40,324 nucleotides of DNA from positions 1-40,324 of IMG/VR virus record IMGVR_UViG_3300017989_000211. The stretch is one strand, 5' to 3'. Shown in pieces: positions 2,394 to 25,594 of this stretch (positions are counted from its first letter, which is position 1; each line of letters opens with the position of its first letter). A program made the position numbers and the translations under genes. Origin of the DNA: a virus. The notes under the pieces are model-generated. The model was not told the DNA's origin. It was given only the letters and a program-made list of their open reading frames with translations, and ran no database searches.

Positions 2394-2808
2394 AGCGAAA
2401 TCAGATTCGACACAATTCGAACTGCCGTTCGATGTGGGGTTAGGCACCATCGGGGAGCGCCTGGCCATCGCGGCCGGAGACCTGGCCGCCGCGATCCGCA
2501 AGTCCCCGCTCTCCAGAGAGCAGGTTATCGACGACCTGGCCCTGCTTCTCGGGCGCCAGGTTTCCCGCGCACAGTTCGACGCATGGACGGCCGAATCAAA
2601 CCGCAACCGGATGCCGGCGGACGTGCTGGTCGGCCTATCCTTTATCGTAGGCGCGCGCGCGTTGGACATCCTCCTGGAACCCCTCGGGCTCAGGACTGCG
2701 GATAGGCGCGACCAGGCCTACGCCGATCTCGGGCGCAAGGGCCTGGAGGCGGAGGACCTCCACGCGGAGATCTCCAAACTCAAGACCTACCTGCGGGGCG
2801 GACGATGA
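2386..2808 (+). CDS. Early protein upstream of transposase, unknown
   Basis: A 140-residue soluble protein with a mostly helical central part and a C-terminal helix rich in charged residues. A segment near residues 45-75 (LSREQVIDDLALLLG, then SRAQFDAW) reads like helices choosing between DNA or protein partners, but no helix-turn-helix is certain. The stop overlaps the transposase start by four bases (ATGA), so the two are translationally coupled. In Mu-like phages this position holds small early regulators, so a regulatory role is likely but inferred. Confidence 0.7.
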   Translation: MSKAKSDSTQFELPFDVGLGTIGERLAIAAGDLAAAIRKSPLSREQVIDDLALLLGRQVSRAQFDAWTAESNRNRMPADVLVGLSFIVGARALDILLEPLGLRTADRRDQAYADLGRKGLEAEDLHAEISKLKTYLRGGR

Positions 2809-4760
2809 CCGCGCCGGCGCGCGAGACCTGGCTGACCACGCAGGAGGCGGCGGACCTGCTGGAGGTGACGCCCCGCGCCGTCCGTAAATCCATTAGCAAC
2901 GGCAACTATCGATCCGAGCTACGGTCCGTAAACCAGCAGGGAGGCAAGGCCCTGAAGCTCGCGCTGTCGAGCTTGCCGACCGAGGCGCAGATCCGGCACG
3001 CCAGGGAGCGGCAGAGCCCGGCCAGCCCGGCTGCGGCGAGCATCCCCGACCTGGACTCGCTCCCGGCCTGGCAGCGCAGGACAGTCGGCGAGCGCTACCT
3101 GCTCCTTTCCGAATGGTTCAGCTTCGAGGCCGCCAACCGGCGGCACGCGGGAAAGGTGGAGCTCCGCGAGCTCTACTGCAAGCACAAGGACCTCGCCCCG
3201 CGCACCCTGGCCCGATGGGAGGCCTCGTACAAAAAACACGGCTGGCAGGGCCTTGCATCCGGCTACGGCAACCGGCGCGGAAACTCCAAGCTCGACGTGG
3301 AGGGTCTGTCTTTCATCGAGGCCAACTTCCTAAAGAGCGACCAGCCCTCGGCTCACGAGGTCTACAACGACTATGCGGCCGACTGCGCCAAGCGCGGCGT
3401 GATCCCATGTTCGTATCAAACCGTGCTCCGCTACATCAACAACACCATCCCGCGCGAGACCAAAGTGCTCTACCGCCTCGGGCCGGATGCGTTCAACGAC
3501 CTGTGCCTCCCCTATTTGGAGCGCGACTACACGGTACTCAAGCCGATGGAGGCAATCTGCGGAGACCACCACATCCTGGATCTGTTCGTGAAGGGGCCCA
3601 CGGGCAAGCTGCACCGCCCACACCTGACCATGTGGAGCGACATCCGGTCGCGCCGGCCGGTGGGCTGGGTCGTGAGCCTCCAGGGCTGCGGGGCGACGAT
3701 CCTGTACTCGCTTCGCCGCGCGATCGACCGATTCGGGAAACCCGAAGTTGGATACATCGATAACGGGATGGATTACAAGGGAGCGCAGATGACCGCCGGC
3801 GGCCGCCGCCGGTGGGTGATCGACGAGGATCAGCAGGCGGAGCTCGCCGGGATCTGGCTCCGGCTCGGGATCAAGCCCGTGTTCGCCGAGCCCTACCACG
3901 GGCAGAGCAAGCCGATCGAACGGCAGTTCAGGGACATCAAGGATCATTTTTCGCGCGAGTTGGACGCATTCTGCGGAGGCCGGCCGTCGGAGAGGCCCCA
4001 CGACATCAAAGAGCGCACGGAAACGGGCAGGGTATACACGCTGGCCGAGCTCGAGGAGCTGATCGGCCGGTTCATCGAGGAGGACCTGATCAATAGACCC
4101 CATACCGGCCACGGCATGGACGGACGTACTCCGGACGAGGTCTTTCACGACGGCTGGGTCAAGCGGCGCATGGACCGCGAGGAGCTGCGCCTGCTGCTGA
4201 TGAAGGCGCGGCCCGCCACGGTCGGCCGGCAGGGCGTGCGCTGGAATCACGCCTGGTACCGGTCCGACGAGCTCGCCCAGCTTCAGCTCCAGGGACAGAA
4301 GGTGATCGCGCGCTACGACCCGGCAGACGTGCGCGAGATTTACCTCTACGACGCCACCGACCGCTTTTTGTGCGCGGCCACGATCGCGGAGCGGTCCCCG
4401 TGGTTCGCCGGAGCGACGACCGAGCGGGACATCGGCGCGATCAAGCGCGAGAAGAAACTGGTCAAGGAGATCGCCAAGGCCGGAAAGGTCGCGGACGCGA
4501 TCCTGTACGAGCTCGACGAGGCCGCCCGCCTGGGCCTGAATCCGGACGGACCCCAGCCCGACGAAGGCCCGCGCGTGATCGAGCCGGTGAGGACCACGGC
4601 GGCGGGCGCGGTCAAGGCGCTGAATCAGCGCGGGCAAAAGGCAGTCAACCAGGACTTCAACCCCGAAGACCTCGAGGCCCTGGCCGATTCGGCCGCGCAG
4701 GCGGACGACCAAGGCGCGGTCGCCGAGGACGAGGAATACCTTGATTTATTCGATGAATGA
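2805..4760 (+). CDS. A: Mu-type DDE transposase A
   Basis: This 651-residue protein catalyses strand cleavage and transfer for integration and replicative transposition. Residues 8-70 are a Mu-type winged-helix DNA-binding domain (WLTTQEAADLLEVTPRAV). Residues 85-215 are further helical end-binding domains. The rve/RNase-H core carries D254 (ICGDHH), D319 (YIDNG) and E372 (KPIERQF), the expected DDE triad with Mu-like spacing. A Mu-type beta-barrel follows (about 465-525), and the acidic tail ends EEYLDLFDE, matching the part of MuA that contacts the B ATPase. The length is close to MuA (663). It overlaps the upstream gene by four bases, and the downstream ATPase follows directly. Confidence 0.95.
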   Translation: MTAPARETWLTTQEAADLLEVTPRAVRKSISNGNYRSELRSVNQQGGKALKLALSSLPTEAQIRHARERQSPASPAAASIPDLDSLPAWQRRTVGERYLLLSEWFSFEAANRRHAGKVELRELYCKHKDLAPRTLARWEASYKKHGWQGLASGYGNRRGNSKLDVEGLSFIEANFLKSDQPSAHEVYNDYAADCAKRGVIPCSYQTVLRYINNTIPRETKVLYRLGPDAFNDLCLPYLERDYTVLKPMEAICGDHHILDLFVKGPTGKLHRPHLTMWSDIRSRRPVGWVVSLQGCGATILYSLRRAIDRFGKPEVGYIDNGMDYKGAQMTAGGRRRWVIDEDQQAELAGIWLRLGIKPVFAEPYHGQSKPIERQFRDIKDHFSRELDAFCGGRPSERPHDIKERTETGRVYTLAELEELIGRFIEEDLINRPHTGHGMDGRTPDEVFHDGWVKRRMDREELRLLLMKARPATVGRQGVRWNHAWYRSDELAQLQLQGQKVIARYDPADVREIYLYDATDRFLCAATIAERSPWFAGATTERDIGAIKREKKLVKEIAKAGKVADAILYELDEAARLGLNPDGPQPDEGPRVIEPVRTTAAGAVKALNQRGQKAVNQDFNPEDLEALADSAAQADDQGAVAEDEEYLDLFDE

Positions 4761-4777
4761 ACCCAAAGGAGGATCCC

Positions 4778-5779
4778 ATGCCGGAACCAGTAAAGAGCGT
4801 TATCGCAATGGAGGAGAAGCGCAAAGGTAAAAGGGGCCGGAAGCCCAAGGTCGACCAGACGCCCGACGAGGCCGTAAGGGGCTGGCTCCGGGGATACAAG
4901 GAGCGCACCGGCTCGTCGTACCGCGACATCGCCGCCGCGACCGGGTGGAGCCAGGCGTACATTCATTGGTATCTGACCGATTCGAAAAAGGTTTACGACG
5001 TGGCCGGCGTGGAATCCAGCATCAAGCTGTTTCGCCAACGCCTCGAGGAGCGCGCCCGCCTCGGCGAGGACCTGCCCTACGTGCGGACCACCGCGTCGCG
5101 GGCCATCATCGCGGCCCTGAACAAAACCATGAAGCAGGGCATCATGTCCGTGATCACCTGCGAGTCGGGCGTGGGCAAGACCACCTCCGTCATGGAGTTC
5201 ATCCGGCGCAATCCGAAGACGGCCTACGTGGTCCCCTGCGACGTAAGCTACAGCCCGCAGGTGTTGTTCAAACGCATCCTGCGCCTGTTCGGCGACTACT
5301 CCCGGTGCACGCTGAACGACGGTCTGGACCGCGCGGTCGACCTGTTTGCCAAACACGCCAACTCGATCCTGATCGTGGACGACGCCCACTGTCTGACAAA
5401 CCCGCGCGGTCCCAACGCGCTGCGCACGCTGTGGGATCACACCGGCATCGGCATCGCCATGATCGGGCAGCCCGAGCTGCGCACCCGGATCCTCGGGCCC
5501 GGCAACGACACGACCGCCCAGGTCTACTCGCGAATCCGGCAGTGGCTGCACGTGACCACCATCAAGCCCGACGACGTGCGGTCGATCGTGGCCGGGGTCC
5601 GATCCGATCTCGACCCCAAGGTCGCCGACCGCCTGGTGCGCGCCGCCGACGCGTACGGCCACTACCGGTACGCGCTCAACCTGCTGCGCAACGCCCTGGA
5701 CGTGGCCAAGGCGGACGGCCGCGACGTCCTCGTCGAGGACGACGTGGTCAAGGGCCAGCGGCTCTACGGAAGGAGGTAG
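4778..5779 (+). CDS. B: MuB-like AAA+ ATPase, target-DNA activator
   Basis: This 333-residue ATPase forms filaments on target DNA and delivers it to the transposase. An N-terminal helix-turn-helix region (about 28-70, SSYRDIAAATGWSQAYIHWYL) is followed by the AAA+ domain with Walker A ESGVGKTT at 129-136, Walker B ILIVDD at 197-202 and the sensor-like IGIAMIGQPEL after it. A C-terminal helical domain completes the MuB architecture. I choose ATG 4778, five bases after a full AAAGGAGG; an ATG at 4757 overlapping the transposase stop is possible but has no ribosome site. Confidence 0.93.
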   Translation: MPEPVKSVIAMEEKRKGKRGRKPKVDQTPDEAVRGWLRGYKERTGSSYRDIAAATGWSQAYIHWYLTDSKKVYDVAGVESSIKLFRQRLEERARLGEDLPYVRTTASRAIIAALNKTMKQGIMSVITCESGVGKTTSVMEFIRRNPKTAYVVPCDVSYSPQVLFKRILRLFGDYSRCTLNDGLDRAVDLFAKHANSILIVDDAHCLTNPRGPNALRTLWDHTGIGIAMIGQPELRTRILGPGNDTTAQVYSRIRQWLHVTTIKPDDVRSIVAGVRSDLDPKVADRLVRAADAYGHYRYALNLLRNALDVAKADGRDVLVEDDVVKGQRLYGRR

Positions 5780-6935: not shown

Positions 6936-7406
6936 ATGAAACGCTTTCGATTCGACTGCACATACGGCGAGGCGATCGCCCTGGCGATCTGCTTCGCCCT
7001 GATCTGGCTGGCCATGGCCGGGTGCGTGGACGTGAACGTGGATGCGCCCGAGCTCGACCCCGACGACCTGGCCGGCTATTTGGACGATGACGACGACGAC
7101 GCGGGGATCCCCGGCGACCACCTTGACGGACTGGACGCCGACGCCGGAGATTCCCCGGATGCGCGCGCGGACTGGGCGGACCTCTGCGCCGAGGGCTGGC
7201 TGCACCCCGGCGACTCAGGCCGCCTGGCCGCGCTGACCCAGACGCGCACCGGCGGGCAAACCCTCGCCCTGGTCGCCAAGGACGCCGTGTACGCGAACCT
7301 GGCCCCGCTGGTGGGCAAATACGTGGAGGTCTGCGGGTACGAGGTCTGCGGATGCTGCGAAGTCCCGGTCCTGGTGCCCGCGATCGCGCAGGAGATCGCG
7401 CATTGA
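6936..7406 (+). CDS. Acidic lipoprotein, unknown
   Basis: A 156-residue protein with a signal peptide ending in lipobox MAGC (Cys30), then a very acidic low-complexity linker (an Asp-rich run near residues 49-56). The C-terminal domain (about 105-156: KDAVYANLAPLVGKYVEVCG followed by a cysteine cluster) has the look of a small OB-like barrel. CGGAGG precedes ATG 6936. A lipoprotein in the early transposition region is unexpected; a role in superinfection exclusion or envelope change is possible but inferred. Confidence 0.7.
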   Translation: MKRFRFDCTYGEAIALAICFALIWLAMAGCVDVNVDAPELDPDDLAGYLDDDDDDAGIPGDHLDGLDADAGDSPDARADWADLCAEGWLHPGDSGRLAALTQTRTGGQTLALVAKDAVYANLAPLVGKYVEVCGYEVCGCCEVPVLVPAIAQEIAH

Positions 7407-8154: not shown

Positions 8155-8175
8155 GGGCGACGCATGCGTCGCCCG
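8151..8175 (+). repeat. GTAG-headed palindrome, GACGCATGCGTC core
   Basis: GTAG head, ggggc shell and a perfect inner palindrome gacgcatgcgtc. The TAG at 8152-8154 is the stop of the upstream gene; the ribosome site of the next gene (GGAAGGAGG) begins at its end. Confidence 0.8.
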
Positions 8176-11170: not shown

Positions 11171-11878
11171 ATGCAAACCATGAACGACCCGAAAGAAACC
11201 GTCCGTTGCGCGCGGCACCACGCGACACTGACCCGCGAGGCGTGCAACCGGTACCGGGAGCGCTGGCCCCTCAAGTGCGAGGGATGCGAAGGCCCGCGTC
11301 CGTTGTTGGCTCGTGAACGGGAGGCGGCAAATCGTGAACGGGGGGGCGTAAATCGTGAACGGGAGGGCGTAAACCGTGAACGGGCAAGGCCCGCCGGTCC
11401 CGAGGAGGCGGCCGACCCCTCGACTCCGCTCAGGGAATCGGCCGCCGCCTCGAAGGACAATCCGCAACCCGACTGTCCCGAGCGAAGTCGAAGGGCAATC
11501 CGCAATCCGCAATCCGAACCCAAGGAGGACCCCATGCCGAAAAAATCCAAACCGAAACCGATGACCTGCTCCACGCCCGGATGCAACGGACAGGTCCTGG
11601 CCAAGGGGATGTGCAGCGCATGCTATTACAAAGCGCGGCGCAAAAAAAAGAATAAACCCGCCCGCCCTGAGGAGCGCCGAAGGCGCGTCTCGAAGGGCGA
11701 GCCCACGCCAAGCAAGGCTTTGAAGTTCAGCGCGGACGCCACCGCCGCGCGCTTTGCGTCCCTGCCCGCCGACCTGATCGGGCGCCTGGCCGACGCAAAA
11801 AAAGGCCTCGACGCGGCCCAGGCCGATTACGACCAGGTCGTGGCCGAGGTTCTGGAGGTCGTAAACCGTGGCGCGTAA
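11171..11878 (+). CDS. Two zinc-motif modules joined by in-frame repeats
   Basis: A continuous 235-residue frame. The first module (1-41) has C13, C25, C36 and C39, a zinc-ribbon pattern. Residues about 48-122 are encoded almost entirely by repeats: three and a half copies of a 21-base unit (seven residues, RERxxxN), then a CCTTCGA/CTCAGG element and heptanucleotides. A second ribosome site (AAGGAGG at 11522-11528) and ATG 11534 begin the second module, with CSTPGC and GMCSACY (four more cysteines) and a helical C-terminus. I suspect two former genes fused by repeat insertion, with the second start still usable. A further repeat lies at 11665-11697. Confidence 0.55.
   Translation: MQTMNDPKETVRCARHHATLTREACNRYRERWPLKCEGCEGPRPLLAREREAANRERGGVNREREGVNRERARPAGPEEAADPSTPLRESAAASKDNPQPDCPERSRRAIRNPQSEPKEDPMPKKSKPKPMTCSTPGCNGQVLAKGMCSACYYKARRKKKNKPARPEERRRRVSKGEPTPSKALKFSADATAARFASLPADLIGRLADAKKGLDAAQADYDQVVAEVLEVVNRGA
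11312..11388 (+). repeat. Tandem 21-bp repeat (3.5 units) inside coding sequence
   Basis: Units begin at 11312, 11333, 11354 and 11375, each starting cgtgaacggg. Twenty-one bases is three heptamers and seven codons, so unit number can change without a frameshift. Confidence 0.75.
11416..11516 (+). repeat. Composite of CCTTCGA/CTCAGG elements and CAATCCG heptamers
   Basis: One cccctcgactccgctcaggg copy at 11416-11435. Heptamers caatccg, caacccg at 11458-11471, then an inverted element copy at 11472-11495, then three caatccg units at 11496-11516, directly followed by a ribosome site. Confidence 0.75.
11665..11697 (+). repeat. CCCTGAGGA...TCTCGAAGGG element with palindromic core
   Basis: Same ends as the CCTTCGA/CTCAGG element (opposite orientation) but a longer core, gcgccgaaggcgc. 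It is in frame in the 11171 gene. Confidence 0.65.
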
Positions 11879-12515
11879 ACGGACAACCATCCGCGTTTCG
11901 GTGACCGGCCTAGACGGCGCGGTGTACGAGGGGAGGCTGAGGCGGGTGGACGGTGAACGGTCGACGGTGGACGGTGAACAGGCAACAGTCAACAGTCAAC
12001 AGTCCACCGCCTGCCCCTACGCCGAGATCCGCGACCTGTACAATCGGATCTGCGCGCGCGCCGGCATGCGCGTCTGCCGCGAGCTCCGCCCCGAATATCC
12101 GCGCGGCAAGGCGGTCGCGCGCCTGTGGAAGGATCATCCGGACCTGAAATGGTGGCAGGATTACTTCATCCTGGCGGCCCGGTCCTCTTTCCTGTGCGGA
12201 AAGAACAAGCCGGGCAAGGGCTACGAACGCCCCTTCCGCGCGGACCTGGGCTACCTGGTCGAAAAGAGCACCGTGGAGGACGTGATCGATCACAAGTACA
12301 TCGACGAGGGATCGGTCGCGCCGAATGCATCGCGGATCCCCGTGGACGAACTGAAGGCCCGCTTGGAGCGGCTTCGCCAAATGCTGCGCAAGTACGAGGC
12401 GGATGGCGTGTGCGAGGGTGACGACAGGGTGATCGGCATCCGCAGGAGCATCGGCGACCTGGAGCGATCCATCGCCCTGCGAGAGGCAGTAAAGGATGTG
12501 AACAGTGGGCGGTGA
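11868..12515 (+). CDS. Phage replication-type protein with inserted heptamer peptide
   Basis: A 215-residue protein from GTG 11868. Residues about 27-47 are encoded by nine heptanucleotide units. The conserved part (about 52-145) reads DLYNRIC, then ARLWKDHPDLKWWQDYF, SSFLCG and RADLGYLVEKSTVEDVIDHKY. This is the C-terminal domain seen in many phage replication or replication-initiation-like proteins, where it follows a variable N-terminus. The last 60 residues are helical. The stop lies inside another heptamer array. Helicase loading or DNA binding is inferred from the family. Confidence 0.7.
   Translation: MARKRTTIRVSVTGLDGAVYEGRLRRVDGERSTVDGEQATVNSQQSTACPYAEIRDLYNRICARAGMRVCRELRPEYPRGKAVARLWKDHPDLKWWQDYFILAARSSFLCGKNKPGKGYERPFRADLGYLVEKSTVEDVIDHKYIDEGSVAPNASRIPVDELKARLERLRQMLRKYEADGVCEGDDRVIGIRRSIGDLERSIALREAVKDVNSGR
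11946..12020 (+). repeat. Heptanucleotide array (9 units) plus REP-like tail
   Basis: Units gtggacg, gtgaacg, gtcgacg, gtggacg, gtgaaca, ggcaaca, gtcaaca, gtcaaca, gtccacc, then gcctgcccctac, the reverse of a GTAGGGGCAGGC end. The array is 63 bases, 21 codons, in frame. Confidence 0.8.
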
Positions 12516-12546
12516 ACAGTCGACAGTCGACAGCCGACAGTCAACC
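12498..12546 (+). repeat. Heptanucleotide array (7 units) forming a stop/start junction
   Basis: Units gtgaaca, gtgggcg, gtgaaca, gtcgaca, gtcgaca, gccgaca, gtcaacc. The second unit provides GTG 12505 and the third provides the TGA (12513-12515) that ends the upstream gene. Confidence 0.8.
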
Positions 12547-12813
12547 GCAGGCCGCCGTTGCGGCATGCGCACCGAGGTGTACTCCCGCGTGGTCGGCTAC
12601 TACCGACCGGTCCAGCAGTGGAACCGGGGCAAGCGGGCGGAGCACAAAGATCGGAAGCTGTTCAAGTTGGACCCTTCGACTGCGCTCAGGGCAGGCGGTG
12701 GACGGTCCTTCGACTCCGCTCAGGACAATCGGACGGTTGACGGTGGACGGCCCCTGGCCGACAATCCGCAACCCGCAATCCGCAATCGGCAATCCGACCC
12801 GGAGGACCCCTGA
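12505..12813 (+). CDS. Stand-alone glycyl-radical peptide related to the class III ribonucleotide reductase C-terminus
   Basis: The conserved part begins at ATG 12565: MRTEVYSRVVGYYRPVQQWN followed by RGKRAEHKDRKLF. This matches the C-terminal glycyl-radical loop of anaerobic ribonucleotide reductase NrdD (consensus SRVxGYxRPVxxWNxGKxxEFxxR); the radical glycine would be G11 of this core (12595-12597). The catalytic barrel and the zinc Cys4 are missing. The 20 residues before the core (from GTG 12505) and about 48 after it are encoded by repeats. By analogy with GrcA/YfiD, which replaces the damaged radical domain of pyruvate formate-lyase, it could be a spare radical module for the host enzyme. 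Partner and activity are inference. Confidence 0.6.
   Translation: MGGEQSTVDSRQSTAGRRCGMRTEVYSRVVGYYRPVQQWNRGKRAEHKDRKLFKLDPSTALRAGGGRSFDSAQDNRTVDGGRPLADNPQPAIRNRQSDPEDP
12672..12796 (+). repeat. Composite: two CCTTCGA/CTCAGG elements, GTCGACG-type and CAATCCG heptamers
   Basis: Element copies at 12672-12690 and 12706-12724, GTTGACG-type units around 12728-12750, and five caatccg-type units at 12762-12796. They encode the C-terminus of the 12505 frame and end just before the ribosome site (GGAGG) of the next gene. Confidence 0.75.
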
Positions 12814-13502
12814 TGCCCACGAGCACAACCCTTCGCGCGATCTGGTCACGGGTAGGCGAGCTCGCAAAGGCGGCCGGGCTGCCCAGGGAGGACGCCGAGG
12901 ACGCGCTGTGCATCATCTGCCGCGAGATCTCCGGCCAGACCTCCACGCGCAAGCTGTCCGCGCGCCAGGCCGAGGCCGTGTGCACGCGGCTTCGCGAGCA
13001 GACCCAGCGCGCCAAGGCCAGCCGCGCGCCCGACCCGGAGGGCACGGTCACGCGCGGCCAGCTTGCGACCGTCGAGCACCTGTTCGACGATTTGGCCACC
13101 TTCCCGCAAAGCAAGAACAGGCGCGGGTTTGCCGAGACCGTGATAAAAAAGCCCTGGCCCCAGACCGTGGCAGAGGGCCGCAAGATGATCGAGGCGCTCT
13201 CCGCCATGTTCCTGCGCAAGATAGACGCGGCCGGAATGGTGGAGGGGTTGTTGCGGCCGGGTTTCGTACGGGCGGGTTTCAAACCCGCCCCTACGACGAC
13301 CGGACCCTGGACCGGCGGGTGTCCGCAGGCCGGGCGGGGGGTCGCGCGCGAGCGGACGCCCGCGCTGACCGACTGGGAGCGCGGCTTCCTGCTCGACGTG
13401 AAACGCAAGCTGGCCGGCGGCCGCAAGCTCAAGCCCGGCGCGGCCGCCAAACTGGTGGAGATATGGCGCAAGAAGGGTGGGCGGTCGGCGGTGGACGATT
13501 GA
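12813..13502 (+). CDS. gemA: GemA-like (Mu gp16, DUF1018) protein
   Basis: A 229-residue protein. The N-terminal region, LRAIWSRVGELAKAAGL then ISGQTSTRKLSARQAEAVCTRL, matches the GemA/DUF1018 layout of helices with the conserved GxxSxxxLS turn. In Mu, GemA alters host DNA topology and gene expression. Residues 151-161 come from a REP-like palindrome inserted in frame (FVRAGFKPAP), forming a linker to a second helical domain, LTDWERGFLLDV to LVEIWRKK, often found at the C-terminus of longer members. The start overlaps the previous stop (TGATG) and has GGAGG at 12801-12805. Confidence 0.75.
   Translation: MPTSTTLRAIWSRVGELAKAAGLPREDAEDALCIICREISGQTSTRKLSARQAEAVCTRLREQTQRAKASRAPDPEGTVTRGQLATVEHLFDDLATFPQSKNRRGFAETVIKKPWPQTVAEGRKMIEALSAMFLRKIDAAGMVEGLLRPGFVRAGFKPAPTTTGPWTGGCPQAGRGVARERTPALTDWERGFLLDVKRKLAGGRKLKPGAAAKLVEIWRKKGGRSAVDD
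13266..13294 (-). repeat. GTAG-headed palindrome (GGGTTT core) inside gemA-like gene
   Basis: The head is on the minus strand (ctac at 13291-13294). The other end is gtac. It is in frame and encodes a linker. Confidence 0.75.
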
Positions 13503-13504
13503 CC

Positions 13505-13530
13505 GTAGGGGCGGGTTACAAACCCGCCCG
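13505..13530 (+). repeat. GTAG-headed palindrome (GGGTTT core)
   Basis: gtaggggcgggttac...aacccgcccg two bases after the stop at 13500-13502. Confidence 0.75.
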
Positions 13531-13554
13531 ACATTGAATGAAGGGGAACGCGAC

Positions 13555-20759: not shown

Positions 20760-22061
20760 ATGAGGACAGTCGACAGTCGACGGTCGACGGTTGACGGCGG
20801 ACGGGCAGGGCGCGCCGCGCCCTTCGACTCCGGTCAGGGACGCGGAGGAGAGAACGGCCAATCCGCAATCCGCAACCCGCAATCCGCAATGCTCAACGAC
20901 GAACCCGCCGGCGATCTCCACCAGGTGGACCTTACGCTCTCCCTGCCGGAGTTTGAGTCCGGACCGCTGCCGGACCTGCTCGAGGTCTTCCGCCTGGGCG
21001 AGGTCGTGCCGCTGACCAGCGGAGGGACGATCGTCGCGGACCAGACCCTGTTCGACGCCTGGATCCGCGCGCGCGACGAGGAGCTCGCACGCGGCAGAAA
21101 GCTGCCCGTGGACTACGAGCACCAGACCCGCGCCGTGCCCCCGCTTCGCGCGCCGGCGGCCGCTTGGATCGACCGCCTCGACCAGCAGGGAGACGCGCTG
21201 CTGGCCCACGTGGAGACCTGGACCGACATGGGCGCAGCCGACGTGCGAAACAAGCGCTACCGCTACATCTCGCCGTCGGGCCGGGTCCTGGCCGCGACCG
21301 ATCCCAAAACGAAAAAGGAGTACCCCGCCAGGCTCGATCACCTGGCGCTGACCAACACGCCGGGGCGGACGGTCAACCCGTCTCTCTGGCTCAAATCCAA
21401 CCAGGCCGAGGGCATCGGCCGAATCGAGGAGGAGGACGAGATGGATTGGAAAAAGAAGCTCGCCTCGGTCCTGAAGCTCAAGGCCGAGGCAACCGACGAG
21501 GACGTGCTGGAGGCCGTGAAGCTCAAGGTCGCGCTCGCCGACAAGGCGGTCGCCGATCTGAAGCTGACCGACCCGGGGCCCGAGGACCTGGAGGCCGCGA
21601 TCGAGAAGCTCTCCGAGCCGCCCGCCGTGGATCTCAAGCAGGTTCTGCCCCTGCTGGACCTGGATCCGGAAAAGGCGGTCACCGACGATGCGACCGGCGC
21701 GATCATCCGGCTCAAGGCCGGGCCCGACGGGAGCGACATGGCCGCGAGGCTCAAGGCCCTGGAGGACGAGACCACGTCGAACAAGGTCGCCTCCGAGCTG
21801 GACAAACACCAGCGTCGGGGCGCGATCAGCGCCAAGCAGCGCGATCAGTACGCGGTCATGCTCAAGGCCAACTTCAAAGCCGCGTCCGAGGCCATGGACG
21901 ATTTGCCCAAGGGCATCTTCCCGGCCGAGGGCGTGTCCCTCGGCGGCGACGAGCCAGCCGCAGGCGGGGAAACAGCGCCGGAAGTCAAGCTGAAGATGGA
22001 CGCCAAGCTGCCCCTGAGCGCGGACGAGCAAAAAATCTACGACGGACTCGCCAAGAGCTGA
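20760..22061 (+). CDS. I: Head maturation protease with scaffold region (Mu gpI-like)
   Basis: A 433-residue protein. The first 43 residues (from ATG 20760) are entirely repeat-encoded; ATG 20889 (MLNDEPAGDL) is likely the ancestral start and sits at the edge of the heptamer array. The protease domain follows, with LPVDYEHQT and its presumed catalytic His, RNKRYRYISPSG and LDHLALTNTPGR, the Mu I-type peptidase signatures. The C-terminal half is charged and helical, as in scaffolds, and has its own start at 21441. It cuts scaffold and possibly itself during capsid assembly. Confidence 0.85.
   Translation: MRTVDSRRSTVDGGRAGRAAPFDSGQGRGGENGQSAIRNPQSAMLNDEPAGDLHQVDLTLSLPEFESGPLPDLLEVFRLGEVVPLTSGGTIVADQTLFDAWIRARDEELARGRKLPVDYEHQTRAVPPLRAPAAAWIDRLDQQGDALLAHVETWTDMGAADVRNKRYRYISPSGRVLAATDPKTKKEYPARLDHLALTNTPGRTVNPSLWLKSNQAEGIGRIEEEDEMDWKKKLASVLKLKAEATDEDVLEAVKLKVALADKAVADLKLTDPGPEDLEAAIEKLSEPPAVDLKQVLPLLDLDPEKAVTDDATGAIIRLKAGPDGSDMAARLKALEDETTSNKVASELDKHQRRGAISAKQRDQYAVMLKANFKAASEAMDDLPKGIFPAEGVSLGGDEPAAGGETAPEVKLKMDAKLPLSADEQKIYDGLAKS
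20762..20886 (+). repeat. Composite array at the protease start: GTCGACG heptamers, CCTTCGA element, CAATCCG heptamers
   Basis: Six GTCGACA/G-type units (20762-20803), an element with ccgcg/cgcgg arms (20815-20845), and four caatccg-type units (20859-20886). ATG 20889 follows immediately. Confidence 0.8.
21441..22061 (+). CDS. Z: Nested scaffold protein (Mu gpZ-like) within the protease gene
   Basis: ATG 21441 is in frame with the protease and preceded by GAGGAGGAGG (21425-21434). The 206-residue product starts MDWKKKLASVLKLKAEATDE and is helical and highly charged, the form of a capsid scaffold. In Mu the scaffold Z is made the same way from within gene I. Expression from this start is inferred from the ribosome site. 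Confidence 0.65.
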   Translation: MDWKKKLASVLKLKAEATDEDVLEAVKLKVALADKAVADLKLTDPGPEDLEAAIEKLSEPPAVDLKQVLPLLDLDPEKAVTDDATGAIIRLKAGPDGSDMAARLKALEDETTSNKVASELDKHQRRGAISAKQRDQYAVMLKANFKAASEAMDDLPKGIFPAEGVSLGGDEPAAGGETAPEVKLKMDAKLPLSADEQKIYDGLAKS

Positions 22062-22087: not shown

Positions 22088-22828
22088 ATGGCGATTACCG
22101 AAGATAGGAACACGGAGTGGACCGGCGGGGAGCTGGCGCACCAGCCCCTCGCCGCCTCCACCAAGGTATACGGGGGCGGCATGGCGCAGCTCGTAAGCGG
22201 GTATGCCAAGCCCGCCCTCGCAACCCAGGCCGGGCCGATCGTCGGCGCGTTCGACGAGCAGGTGGACAACTCCAGCGGGGCCGCCGCCGACGAGTACGTC
22301 CACATCAAAACCCGCATGCCGCTGAAGTGGGCCAACTCCGAGACCTCGGCGGTTACCCAGGCGTACGTGGGCAAGCCCTGCTACTGCGAGGACGACCAGA
22401 CCGTTTGCATCGACGCGTCCAAGCCCTTCGCGGGCATCGTGGAGCGCGTCGAATCCGACGGCGTCTGGGTGTTTATGTCCATCGACCTCATGCCCACCGG
22501 CGCGGCCGTGGGCGCGGGCTCGTGGGCGACCACGCAGACCCTGCTCGCCGCGACGGCCCTGGTATTCAACGTCAACCAAAAATACTACCCGGTCGCCGGG
22601 TCCGGCGGCGCGGTCACGCTGATCAGCGATTTTCCGGACGGGTCCCACGCCGGGCAGGAGATCGTGCTGGTGGGCACGCACGACGCCAACACGGTCGAGG
22701 TCACGACCGGAATCAATACCAAAACCGAGGGCGGCGCGAGCATTACCCTGGCCGCCGATTCGTACCTGCCTTTCGTGTGGAACGGATCGGACTGGGTGCA
22801 AAGCGGGCCGGCCATTCACAGCGCTTAA
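22088..22828 (+). CDS. Head decoration protein (DUF2190-like)
   Basis: A 246-residue, beta-rich protein with a hydrophilic N-terminus (GGELAHQPLAASTKVYGGGM) and SGYAKPALATQAGPIVGAFDEQVD, similar to the small cement proteins (DUF2190 type) next to capsid genes in transposable phages. The C-terminal 110 residues form an extra strand-rich domain (FPDGSHAGQEIVLVGTHDAN), possibly exposed on the capsid. GGAGG lies at 22076-22080. Confidence 0.65.
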   Translation: MAITEDRNTEWTGGELAHQPLAASTKVYGGGMAQLVSGYAKPALATQAGPIVGAFDEQVDNSSGAAADEYVHIKTRMPLKWANSETSAVTQAYVGKPCYCEDDQTVCIDASKPFAGIVERVESDGVWVFMSIDLMPTGAAVGAGSWATTQTLLAATALVFNVNQKYYPVAGSGGAVTLISDFPDGSHAGQEIVLVGTHDANTVEVTTGINTKTEGGASITLAADSYLPFVWNGSDWVQSGPAIHSA

Positions 22829-22837
22829 ACCATTGAC

Positions 22838-22863
22838 GCGGGCGAGGCATGCCTCGCCCCTAC
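22838..22863 (-). repeat. Palindrome with GAGGCATGCCTC core
   Basis: gcgggcgaggcatgcctcgcccctac; the GTAG head is on the minus strand. The next ribosome site (GGGAGGAG) follows it directly. Confidence 0.75.
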
Positions 22864-22876
22864 GGGAGGAGAAACG

Positions 22877-24319
22877 ATGAGAAGCAAAATCAAAACCGCG
22901 CTCGCGGTCCTGGGCATCTTGGTCCTGGCCGCGGCCCTGTTCGGAGGCGTTATGACCTCCAAGGACCTCGAGGAGTTCCTTACGGCGGTGCGCATCGGCG
23001 ACGACCTCAAATTTTATTTAGGCGCCGGCAACGACGCCTCCATGGAGTACGACGCGGACGGCACGGGCCGGACCCTGTTCGACGCGGCCGCCGGATCCGG
23101 ATTCAACATCACGACCGGCAACCTTTACGTGGGCAACGACACGCCGGACCAGACCATCGACGGAGAGGACGCCTACGTCGAGGGCGTCCTGGAAAACGAC
23201 GGCGGCATCTACGCCGACGGAGGCATCAGCCTCGGAACCGCCATGGCGGTCCCCGACGACACCCTGGTGATTTACGGCGACGACAACGACGTGAGCTTCG
23301 CCTACGACGAGGCGACCCATGACCGCGCCGCCATGACATTCGCCTCGGCGACCAGCGGCCTGGGCATTTTTTCCGGCAATCTATTTGTCGGCGACGAAAC
23401 GCCGGACCAGACCATCGACGGCGAGGACGCCTACGTGGAGGGCCTGGTCGAGATCGACGGCGTGATCTACTCCGACGGCGGGGCCCTGGTGCCCGACGAC
23501 ATCTCGATTACATTCGGCTCCGATTCGGACGTGACCGCGCAGTTCGACGAGGACGGCAACGACGAGCTGCAGATCACCGGCAACGTGGGCATCGACAACG
23601 ACCTGATCTGCCGCGAGGACGTGAACCTCGGCGGCGTGGACCACCAGGACACAATCAAGCTGTTCACCCGCGCGACCACGCGCAACGAGGCCGACTCCAG
23701 CGACTTTATGGACCTGGATTTTACCAGCGAGGACATCGGAGAGCTGCTGCGGATCGCGGCCGGGATCGACGACGACGGCGCTCGCGGACAGTTCCAGGCC
23801 GCGCAGTTCGCGGCCCAGGCCAAGGTGGACATGAACAAGGGCTCCGATTCGCTTCGGGGCTCGGAACTCAAGGCCACCTGCGGGACCGGCGAGGGCGCCG
23901 AGTGCGACGAGATCATGGGGGCCCTGAGCTGGGCCGTTCTCAAGGGCAGCGTCGCGGCGACCGCGGACGCGGCCTACGGGCTCAAGGCCGAGTTGGCCGG
24001 AAGCGGCGGGGGGACCTACACCTACACGACCGGGGCGGCGCTCTACGGATACGTCTCCAGCGCGGGGACGACAACAGACGGCGCGGTGCTCAAGCTCGAA
24101 TCCACGGTGGACGAGGATCTGCCGTTCATCAATTTCGACGGCGCGGCCGCCGCCGATAACTCTAAAAACGTCAGCACGGCCCAGGGCGACGGAACCGCCG
24201 AGTGTCCGCTCAAGTCCGACGGCGACCCGGCGGGGTGGGAGTTCGCGAAGATGATCAAGGTTCGCCTCGACGGCGACGCGGACTACTGGATCCCGATCTA
24301 CACCTACGACCCGAATTAA
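22877..24319 (+). CDS. Large acidic repeat-bearing protein in the head module, signal-anchored
   Basis: A 480-residue protein not expected in the Mu gene order. Residues 5-25 form a hydrophobic signal or anchor, unusual for a capsid protein. Two copies of a module GNLYVGNDTPDQTIDGEDAY and GNLFVGDETPDQTIDGEDAY begin about 86 residues apart, and other short copies (ITFGSDSD, IYGDDNDVS) suggest stacked beta repeats like those of fibres. The C-terminal part (290-480) is a beta-rich domain with WIPIYTYD at the end. It could be a capsid fibre or host-derived surface fibre. GGAGGAG precedes ATG 22877. Confidence 0.55.
   Translation: MRSKIKTALAVLGILVLAAALFGGVMTSKDLEEFLTAVRIGDDLKFYLGAGNDASMEYDADGTGRTLFDAAAGSGFNITTGNLYVGNDTPDQTIDGEDAYVEGVLENDGGIYADGGISLGTAMAVPDDTLVIYGDDNDVSFAYDEATHDRAAMTFASATSGLGIFSGNLFVGDETPDQTIDGEDAYVEGLVEIDGVIYSDGGALVPDDISITFGSDSDVTAQFDEDGNDELQITGNVGIDNDLICREDVNLGGVDHQDTIKLFTRATTRNEADSSDFMDLDFTSEDIGELLRIAAGIDDDGARGQFQAAQFAAQAKVDMNKGSDSLRGSELKATCGTGEGAECDEIMGALSWAVLKGSVAATADAAYGLKAELAGSGGGTYTYTTGAALYGYVSSAGTTTDGAVLKLESTVDEDLPFINFDGAAAADNSKNVSTAQGDGTAECPLKSDGDPAGWEFAKMIKVRLDGDADYWIPIYTYDPN
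23141..23444 (+). repeat. Internal duplication, 258-bp period
   Basis: Near-identical 46-base blocks at 23141-23186 and 23399-23444 (start acgccggaccagacc), inside the 22877 gene. Confidence 0.75.
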
Positions 24320-24389: not shown

Positions 24390-25298
24390 ATGATTCAGGG
24401 AGCAGCGGAGCTCGGCGACCTTGGACTGCGCCTCAGGTCGATCTACGAGGCCGAGAAATCCAAGTACGAGCCAAGATACAAAAAGTTCGCCCTGGTCCTG
24501 CCAAGCGACCAGGAGACCGAAAACTACGCGTGGCTCGACGATGTCGAGGGCGTGCGGGAGTTCGTCGGCGAGAGGGTTTTCGAGACCCTGCGCATGACCA
24601 CGTGGGCAGTTAAAAACAAAAAGTGGGAGCGCTCGGTCGGGATCAAGTGGGAGGATCTCCGGTTCGACCGCCTCGGCCAGGTTAAGGTGCGCATCCAGCG
24701 CATGGCTTCCCTGGGCGCGAAGCACAAGGACAAGCTGTTCTACAACACGCTTTGGAGCGGGTTCTCCGCGTCGTGCTACGACGGGCAGTATTTTTTCGAC
24801 ACCGATCACCCCTACGACGGCGGGACCTGGTCCAACCTGATCACCTACGCTCTTTCCGCCGACGCCTTCGGGCTTGCCCTTCAACGGATGATGGAGGTCA
24901 TGACCTACGGCGGCGAGCCCTACGACGCGGACCGCACGCAACTGGTGTTGCACGTGGGCCCCTCCAACATGAAGGCCGCCATGGACATCCTCCAAAAAGA
25001 CCGTCTCGCCAACGGCGAGGACAACGTCTGGAAGGGGCGCGCGGAGTTGGACGTGAATCCCCGCATCACCGACTCGAAGTGGACTCTCGAGGACGTCTCC
25101 GACTCGGTCCTGCGCGCGGTTGTCGTGCAGGAGGTGGACATTCAGGAGCCGGAGTTCCTTTTCATCGACGACCCCAAGAGCCCGGACAAGTTCACCAAGG
25201 ACGCGGTGCTGGCCGGGTGCAAATACATGCACAACGCCGGCCTGCTCTTCCCGCAGGCGGCGGTGGGCAGCACCGGCGCGGACGCCTGGCCGTCCTGA
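24390..25298 (+). CDS. T: Major capsid protein (Mu gpT-like)
   Basis: A 302-residue major head subunit of the Mu gpT family (HK97 fold). Supporting stretches are YAWLDDVEGVREFVGER, FETLRMTTWAVKNKKWERSV, DGQYFFDTDHP and the C-terminal PEFLFIDDPKSPDKFTKDAV. No N-terminal propeptide of large size is seen, as in Mu. GGAGGG lies before ATG 24390. The 70-base gap upstream has a small GC-rich hairpin (ggctcggccgcgagggccgc) that may space capsid expression. Confidence 0.92.
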   Translation: MIQGAAELGDLGLRLRSIYEAEKSKYEPRYKKFALVLPSDQETENYAWLDDVEGVREFVGERVFETLRMTTWAVKNKKWERSVGIKWEDLRFDRLGQVKVRIQRMASLGAKHKDKLFYNTLWSGFSASCYDGQYFFDTDHPYDGGTWSNLITYALSADAFGLALQRMMEVMTYGGEPYDADRTQLVLHVGPSNMKAAMDILQKDRLANGEDNVWKGRAELDVNPRITDSKWTLEDVSDSVLRAVVVQEVDIQEPEFLFIDDPKSPDKFTKDAVLAGCKYMHNAGLLFPQAAVGSTGADAWPS

Positions 25299-25566: not shown

Positions 25567-25594
25567 GTGGGGGCGAGGCATGCCTCGCCCCTGC
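25567..25594. repeat. Palindrome with GAGGCATGCCTC core
   Basis: gtgggggcgaggcatgcctcgcccctgc: head altered to GTGG/GCAG. Eight bases after the stop at 25556-25558. Confidence 0.75.

Follow-up and report, generated by a model that had tools for sequence, protein, structure and literature searches.

The products of tailed-phage head genes are usually assumed to remain in the cytoplasm until lysis. One study counted it in favour of the phage origin of hypervariable phage proteins that these have neither signal peptides nor membrane segments (PMC6199706). Llp of phage T5 is described as a phage-coded envelope protein that stops re-adsorption; Llp and Cor are both small lipoproteins encoded beside a receptor-binding gene, and the other candidates discussed with T5 Llp also adjoin tail receptor-binding genes (PMC9586334). 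The mosaic adhesive trimers (MATs), exported phage-type fibres encoded by the predatory bacterium Bdellovibrio, carry a conserved domain of about 130 residues after the signal peptide (PMC10769870).

The gene considered here, P0001, belongs to a virus record of 40,324 bases, the whole of which was analysed and is referred to as the window. It resembles the genes for Llp and Cor in being phage-coded and in lying in or next to structural genes, and its product would also act outside the cytoplasm. However, P0001 consists of 480 residues of beta repeats, whereas Llp and Cor are small, and it adjoins a capsid gene; its neighbours encode a decoration protein and the major head protein, not a receptor-binding tail protein. 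The lipobox cysteine that follows the hydrophobic core of Llp and Cor is also absent from P0001, although a lipobox-like one occurs in 14 of 44 relatives. Like the MATs, the family would consist of signal-bearing, phage-adhesin-like beta fibres with variable C-terminal tips, but P0001 is a phage gene in a head cluster with a repeat module of its own. The conserved N-terminal domain of the MATs is a beta domain; P0001 begins with a hydrophobic segment.

The P0001 locus and protein

The genes of the window that matter here are as follows.

17087, large terminase (PHROG match)
18292, portal (PHROG match)
20760, head maturation protease (PHROG match)
22088-22828, + strand, decoration-type head protein (phrog_1731, E 8.4e-35)
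22877-24319, + strand, P0001, CDS of 480 aa from an ATG, putative signal-anchored repeat protein (ORF; relatives L163 and L150)
24390-25298, + strand, major head protein (phrog_371, E 1.2e-55)
27667, tail sheath (PHROG match)

Two further ORFs, at 2805-4760 and 4757-5779, are read as MuA-like and MuB-like from their translations by eye. A GGAGG stands shortly 5' of the P0001 ATG, and GC by codon position (0.62/0.44/0.89) is the same as that of its neighbours (0.61/0.50/0.89 and 0.60/0.39/0.87), which rules out a moron origin by base composition. The initial annotation had described an acidic ORF between decoration and capsid genes, and this description holds: the predicted pI is 4.05, with 88 D+E against 26 K+R, and the neighbours match phrog_1731 and phrog_371. 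Within P0001 the following segments can be distinguished.

22895..22960, + strand, hydrophobic segment, residues 7-28, behind the positive n-region MRSKIK
22988..23089, + strand, DD...G...D....YDxDG element, copy 1, residues 38-71 (by eye; aligns with L150 and L163)
23102..23230, + strand, GNLxVGNxTPDQTIDGEDAYVEG module, copy 1, residues 76-118 (repeat comparison; alignment A2)
23249..23356, + strand, YDE element, copy 2, residues 125-160 (by eye; aligns with L150 and L163)
23360..23488, + strand, GNL..GEDAYVEG module, copy 2, residues 162-204 (repeat comparison)
23489..23584, + strand, element copy 3, FG.D.DV...FDEDGNDEL, residues 205-236 (weak P-SSM2 likeness)
23663..24316, + strand, orphan C-terminal region, residues 263-480 (without relatives in the searches)

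The hydrophobic N-terminus claimed earlier was confirmed as the sole strong hydrophobic stretch of the protein, with a KD19 value of 2.56 at residue 8 and a maximum of 1.14 past residue 40. From the positive-inside rule an N-in/C-out topology is expected. P0001 has no lipobox, its first cysteine being residue 245, and appears by eye to lack a clear signal-peptidase site. The initial annotation's two modules of 258-bp period are borne out as a duplication (109-nt copies, 83% identical, spaced by 258 nt), but 'near-identical' was too strong for the protein, in which residues 76-118 and 162-204 share 29 of 43 positions; the best pair of 43-mers in 200 shuffles of P0001 shared only 15. The element ..DDxxxxxGxxxDxxxxYDxDG.. 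was found by eye three times, at residues of about 38-71, 125-160 and 205-236. Three of the four cysteines (335, 343 and 443) fall in the C-terminal region. The beta domain formerly proposed at this end is weakly supported by two strands at 454-477 (pLDDT about 60 there) in a single-sequence model of poor quality (mean pLDDT 34). For residues 263-480 no relative turned up in the ORFs searched or in the phage collection. The last 53 residues matched the phage collection at E 9 to 10 only.

Searches of Pfam, PHROGs, NCBIfam and PDB sequences with P0001 returned nothing credible and nothing above a curated cut-off. The sole enzyme-like match, to a head maturation protease (PHROG E 0.013), was set aside as chance, and the clear enzyme family that the initial annotation had named as evidence against its proposal did not turn up in these four collections. 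There was no match to phrog_1731 at E<=1, and with the whole protein as query nothing credible emerged from the viral, genome, phage or plasmid collections, the best phage match having a tblastn E of 0.4. The FDEDGNDEL stretch is weakly similar to a protein of cyanophage P-SSM2 (tblastn E 0.8 with the whole protein; phmmer 1.4e-05 in a small set).

Comparison with relatives of the window's capsid gene covered the best 80 of 598, some in short loci. An ORF matching P0001 was found in 0 of these 80, so that the gene is patchy among the window's own capsid relatives; this also fits the earlier remark that Mu has no gene here. A decoration homologue occurs in 75 of the 80 loci and, in 72 of these 75, overlaps the capsid ORF or lies at most 90 bp from it. 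The gap is larger in L018 (117 bp), L040 (121 bp) and L067 (1435 bp), the last holding an ORF (L067:3596-4747) that looks by eye like an aldo-keto reductase.

Several other features of the window were noted. The perfect 20-nt palindrome GGGCGAGGCATGCCTCGCCC occurs at 22840-22859 and 25571-25590, with a third copy, bearing two mismatches, at 8155-8174; these are three matches in the window against 0.01 expected. The two perfect copies bracket P0001, the capsid gene and a 63-aa ORF, one lying 5' of P0001 and the other after the 63-aa ORF. We take the palindrome to resemble a dispersed repeat of host type. ORFs at 11171-13537 and 20760-22061 contain runs such as IRNPQSA and STPLRT, which sit within phage genes, the N-terminus of the head protease included, and presumably resemble translated host intergenic repeats. 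A small acidic ORF at 6936-7406 has a lipobox-like start (..LIWLAMAGCVDVN..) and is likely, on its sequence, to encode a second envelope protein of the phage.

A family defined by the repeat module

An alignment of the two P0001 repeats (A1) retrieved 22 viral loci from 72 pattern matches. A second alignment, of 19 modules (A2), retrieved 53 viral loci from 118 matches, many of them on contigs already retrieved with A1, together with four CPR bacterial contigs from 17 matches. Removal of identical proteins left 50 rows, of which one is the window, 45 are viral and four CPR. Closest to P0001 are L163 (44% over 198 aa, BLASTP E 3e-45 in a single comparison) and L150 (48% identity to P0001), both of which keep the hydrophobic start and the two modules. 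The best match of the capsid protein that accompanies L150 (L160, same contig) is phrog_371, as in the window, while that of L163 matches phrog_4523 first (4.3e-13) and phrog_371 second (4.6e-12). Five relatives were scanned against Pfam. L089 gave an above-cut-off match to a phage depolymerase C-terminal beta-sandwich (E 7.7e-06) and a bactofilin match below cut-off, L104 gave a weak bactofilin match, and the other three gave none. In the CPR contigs L156, L157, L158 and L159 (Microgenomates, Kerfeldbacteria, Uhrbacteria) the module lies within very large proteins, those of L157 and L158 having signal-like starts.

In six contigs a small gene directly 3' of the family gene shows, by eye, an LH...C pattern:

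L086:3719-4306, small LH...C gene
L089:8422-8982, small LH...C gene
L096:10475-11044, small LH...C gene
L101:10642-11178, small LH...C gene
L104:5199-5732, small LH...C gene
L125:6884-7405, small LH...C gene

The pattern recalls, in our view, CHAT/caspase-type proteases; five of the six gave no Pfam match at E<=0.1, and the L125 gene matches that of L101 (2.8e-33).

The neighbourhood of the family gene was counted in 47 viral contigs, two near-duplicate pairs being kept. A capsid homologue on the same strand is present in the fetched stretch of 42 of the 47; its distance is at most 2 kb in 39 contigs and at most 300 bp in 23, and is 2.5 to 4.9 kb in three of the 42 (L086, L089 and L113). It lies upstream of the family gene in 36 of 42, and in the window just downstream. 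These capsid genes fall into 10 PHROG groups (371, 10, 1328, 133, 283, 3990, 1357, 1005, 212 and 3922), and the family gene thus tracks the capsid position across otherwise different phages. The calls rest on 18 capsid seeds, partly picked for being neighbours, with a PHROG head-type match in 18 of 18 stretches, and on phmmer comparison with these seeds in the remaining contigs. Group phrog_133 bears the name head maturation protease, but the proteins assigned to it here match phrog_4523 (major head and protease protein) as well. The PHROG match of L083 is modest (1.3e-07), and the call in L138 is weak (2.4e-05, no PHROG match at 0.01). No capsid gene was detected in the fetched stretches of L084, L087, L088, L107 and L116. 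A portal homologue lies three ORFs after the family gene in L107, and a head maturation protease two ORFs before it in L116, while L084, L087 and L088 look by eye like tail-spike regions.

N-terminal starts were compared in 45 proteins, comprising the window, L163 and 43 others; the near-duplicates L132 and L152 and the four CPR loci were omitted, and the start of L099, whose automatic ORF ran upstream, was reset by hand to an internal ATG. A hydrophobic start is present in 44 of the 45. Net-positive residues precede the core in 42 of these 44, and in 42 of 44 the charge is more positive ahead of the core than after it. The proposal that the protein is membrane-targeted and made with the capsid genes gains support from these starts and from the nearby capsid homologues. 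The true exception, L126, lies directly behind its capsid gene. Under a strict common hydropathy cut-off, 44 of 46 family proteins passed, whereas of the 285 other plus-strand ORFs in these loci that encode 150 aa or more, 35 did so; this family count precedes the reset of L099, which with L126 makes up the two failures. A looser test gave 63 hydrophobic starts among 309 neighbouring ORFs, so that such a start is not unique to the family. A lipobox-like cysteine occurs in 14 of 44 family proteins against 7 of 63 hydrophobic-start neighbours, although that of L138 could equally be a signal-peptidase I site. L107 has a lipobox, and the start of L142 is signal-peptidase-like. Across the family the N-terminal pattern probably reflects Sec targeting, after which individual members would be anchored, cleaved or lipidated.

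Some of the hydrophobic-start neighbours resemble, by eye, further exported spike or fibre proteins. In L087, L088, L132 and L154, three to six adjacent genes, the family gene included, have signal-like starts, and several of these look by eye like beta-helix spikes.

Fold of the repeat body and the tip domain

An AlphaFold model of P0001 residues 35-270, built as a monomer from 49 sequences, is all-beta (mean pLDDT 79.1, pTM 0.59). Foldseek found no match in the PDB at E<=0.001; alongside phage fibres it listed plainly unrelated folds, SH3 domains and a proteasome ATPase among them. When 192 of Foldseek's best chains were re-ranked by VIA-align, Z was at least 2 in 41 and at least 5 in none; since Z < 8 may mean only a common arrangement, the matches were used to indicate a class, not membership. 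The best, with Z 3.8, is to an endosialidase stalk, and the 24 entries listed all belong to phages or phage-like machines, in which they are spikes, fibres or baseplate parts. The best-aligned are trimeric phage spikes and fibres, all of them weak matches. The trimeric fibres of the Bdellovibrio MATs stand at the bottom, with Z only 2.2 for Bd3182 and 2.0 for Bd2439. A search of viral predicted structures gave one match (4.8e-4), to an unnamed entry. Each match is weak, but the class points to a repeat body that is probably an elongated, trimeric beta-fibre, and the fibre-like beta-repeat protein of the initial annotation is to this extent strengthened by the model.

Many relatives end in a tip domain that is absent from P0001. 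When 12 family members were used to build a profile of this domain from their C-termini, it matched the window decoration protein at residues 166-237 (E 5.1e-07); this is a phrog_1731-type protein with an added C-terminal tip domain. Of the head decoration proteins of Mu-like phages (phrog_1731), the one in the window adjoins P0001 and bears the family tip, but P0001 does not itself match phrog_1731. Two homologues of the window decoration protein, L040:6477-7037 and L069:9264-9824, have a putative MK+hydrophobic N-terminal extension; the two extensions (41 and 46 residues) are alike, starting MK[RK][IT]LLIAAG, and are missing from the L059 and L072 decoration proteins, which are 75% and 73% identical to that of L040.

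In annotated phage records the tip domain is shared by gp023, a tail protein of Escherichia phage alia, and the YDEDGNDEL element, weakly, by PSSM2_118 of P-SSM2. Both differ from the family in having no hydrophobic start and no capsid gene in the stretches examined. Six records matched the tip domain and 11 either the tip or YDEDGNDEL; the proteins examined had no hydrophobic start in 3 of 3 and 4 of 4 cases, respectively, so that the hydrophobic segment does not travel with these domains. Searches of the phage collection with L117 and L100 found no match, and with L142 its tip alone matched. A cysteine pair (N..C..W.C) was seen by eye in the tips of 5 of 12 aligned family members and 0 of 2 other matches, too few for a disulfide test of export, which was dropped.

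A proposed envelope fibre or possible virion part

The reading that we favour, and put forward tentatively, is that P0001 is a late-made, Sec-exported, envelope-anchored beta-fibre, most likely acting at the envelope of the infected cell, where it would screen phage receptors. It would be made late, along with the capsid proteins, and sent out by the Sec pathway. Its N-terminus would then remain in the inner membrane or be cut there, or be lipidated in the lipobox relatives, and the acidic repeat body and C-terminal tip would lie outside the cytoplasm. At the end of the cycle the fibre could occupy or screen the cell-surface ligands used by phage adhesins, as T5 Llp is described to do by other means (PMC9586334), and this may spare the phage's own progeny, and rival phages, loss on the cell or its debris. 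What the sequences and the model show directly is the gene with its repeats, the N-terminal hydrophobic pattern, the retention of this pattern and of the capsid-gene surroundings in the family, and a beta-rich fold as modelled. We infer Sec export and the trimer, as well as late expression from gene order; the receptor-screening role is a guess. An envelope fibre is the best reading of the hydrophobic starts and positive n-regions of the family, the excess of lipobox-like cysteines, the place beside the capsid gene and the all-beta model. Against it stand L126, which has no hydrophobic start, the hydrophobic starts found among neighbouring ORFs, the missing lipobox and apparent lack of a clear signal-peptidase site in P0001, the weakness of the structural matches and the absence of the tip domain from P0001. 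It also counts against this reading that P0001 adjoins a capsid gene and genes of the T5 Llp type adjoin tail receptor-binding genes, which suggests the capsid as partner.

The tie to capsid genes of 10 PHROG groups, together with the decoration proteins that have a hydrophobic start, makes a role in the virion nearly as likely. The initial annotation had named a capsid fibre and a surface protein that changes the host as its two options. In a virion role P0001 would be a fibre attached to the capsid, either because its hydrophobic or lipidated N-terminus tethers it to lipid of the head or because its subunits stay outside the cytoplasm until lysis and only then attach to the head. The match of the window decoration protein to the family tip, the signal-less L126 and the depolymerase-type beta-sandwich of L089, one of the five relatives scanned, are also in keeping with a capsid fibre. 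A lipid-bearing head is physically possible, since engineered T7 with its capsid protein fused to the PhoE signal peptide took up phospholipid (PMC5157022). However, 14 members are lipobox-like and most others have the look of an ordinary signal peptide with positive-inside charge, and such starts would place P0001 on the opposite side of the membrane from the assembling heads. A broader form of the idea is that virion parts are built outside the cytoplasm in many uncultured tailed phages whose capsid lineages are unrelated, their capsid-side fibre and even decoration subunits being exported or lipid-anchored and meeting the head at lysis only. This is unlikely; if it is true, such heads wear host lipid or fibres matured in the periplasm.

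It is also improbable that P0001 is a conversion gene, made in the lysogen to change the host surface and carried in the head region as mere cargo. Its patchiness, with no match in 80 of 80 loci related to the window's capsid gene, would suit this, as would the module in large proteins of four CPR contigs, two with signal-like starts, but the codon-position GC is that of the neighbours, and random cargo would not be expected so regularly beside the capsid gene. The hydrophobic start might also be an internal device of head assembly, for example one removed by the prohead protease, and not an export signal. Predicted signal peptides on major capsid proteins of Porphyromonas phages have been read as likely cleaved in this way (PMC10367356), but we consider this very improbable for the present family given that 14 of 44 members have a lipobox-like cysteine and that in 42 of 44 the n-region is the more positive side.

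There are known examples of fibre-like proteins in phages, of envelope lipoproteins encoded by phages and of exported fibres of phage type, each on its own. No account of the family was found in the published open-access literature, and as far as that literature goes their combination in a capsid-linked, widespread family is new. The sequences suggest that, while their heads are being built, some phages export a fibre from the host cytoplasm. With its export-type starts, kept beside the capsid gene across ten PHROG capsid groups, the family would break with the rule of thumb that head proteins are cytoplasmic. It offers a way into the question of how the host surface may be altered by phages late in infection, and it may link phage fibres to exported bacterial trimeric fibres such as the Bdellovibrio MATs.
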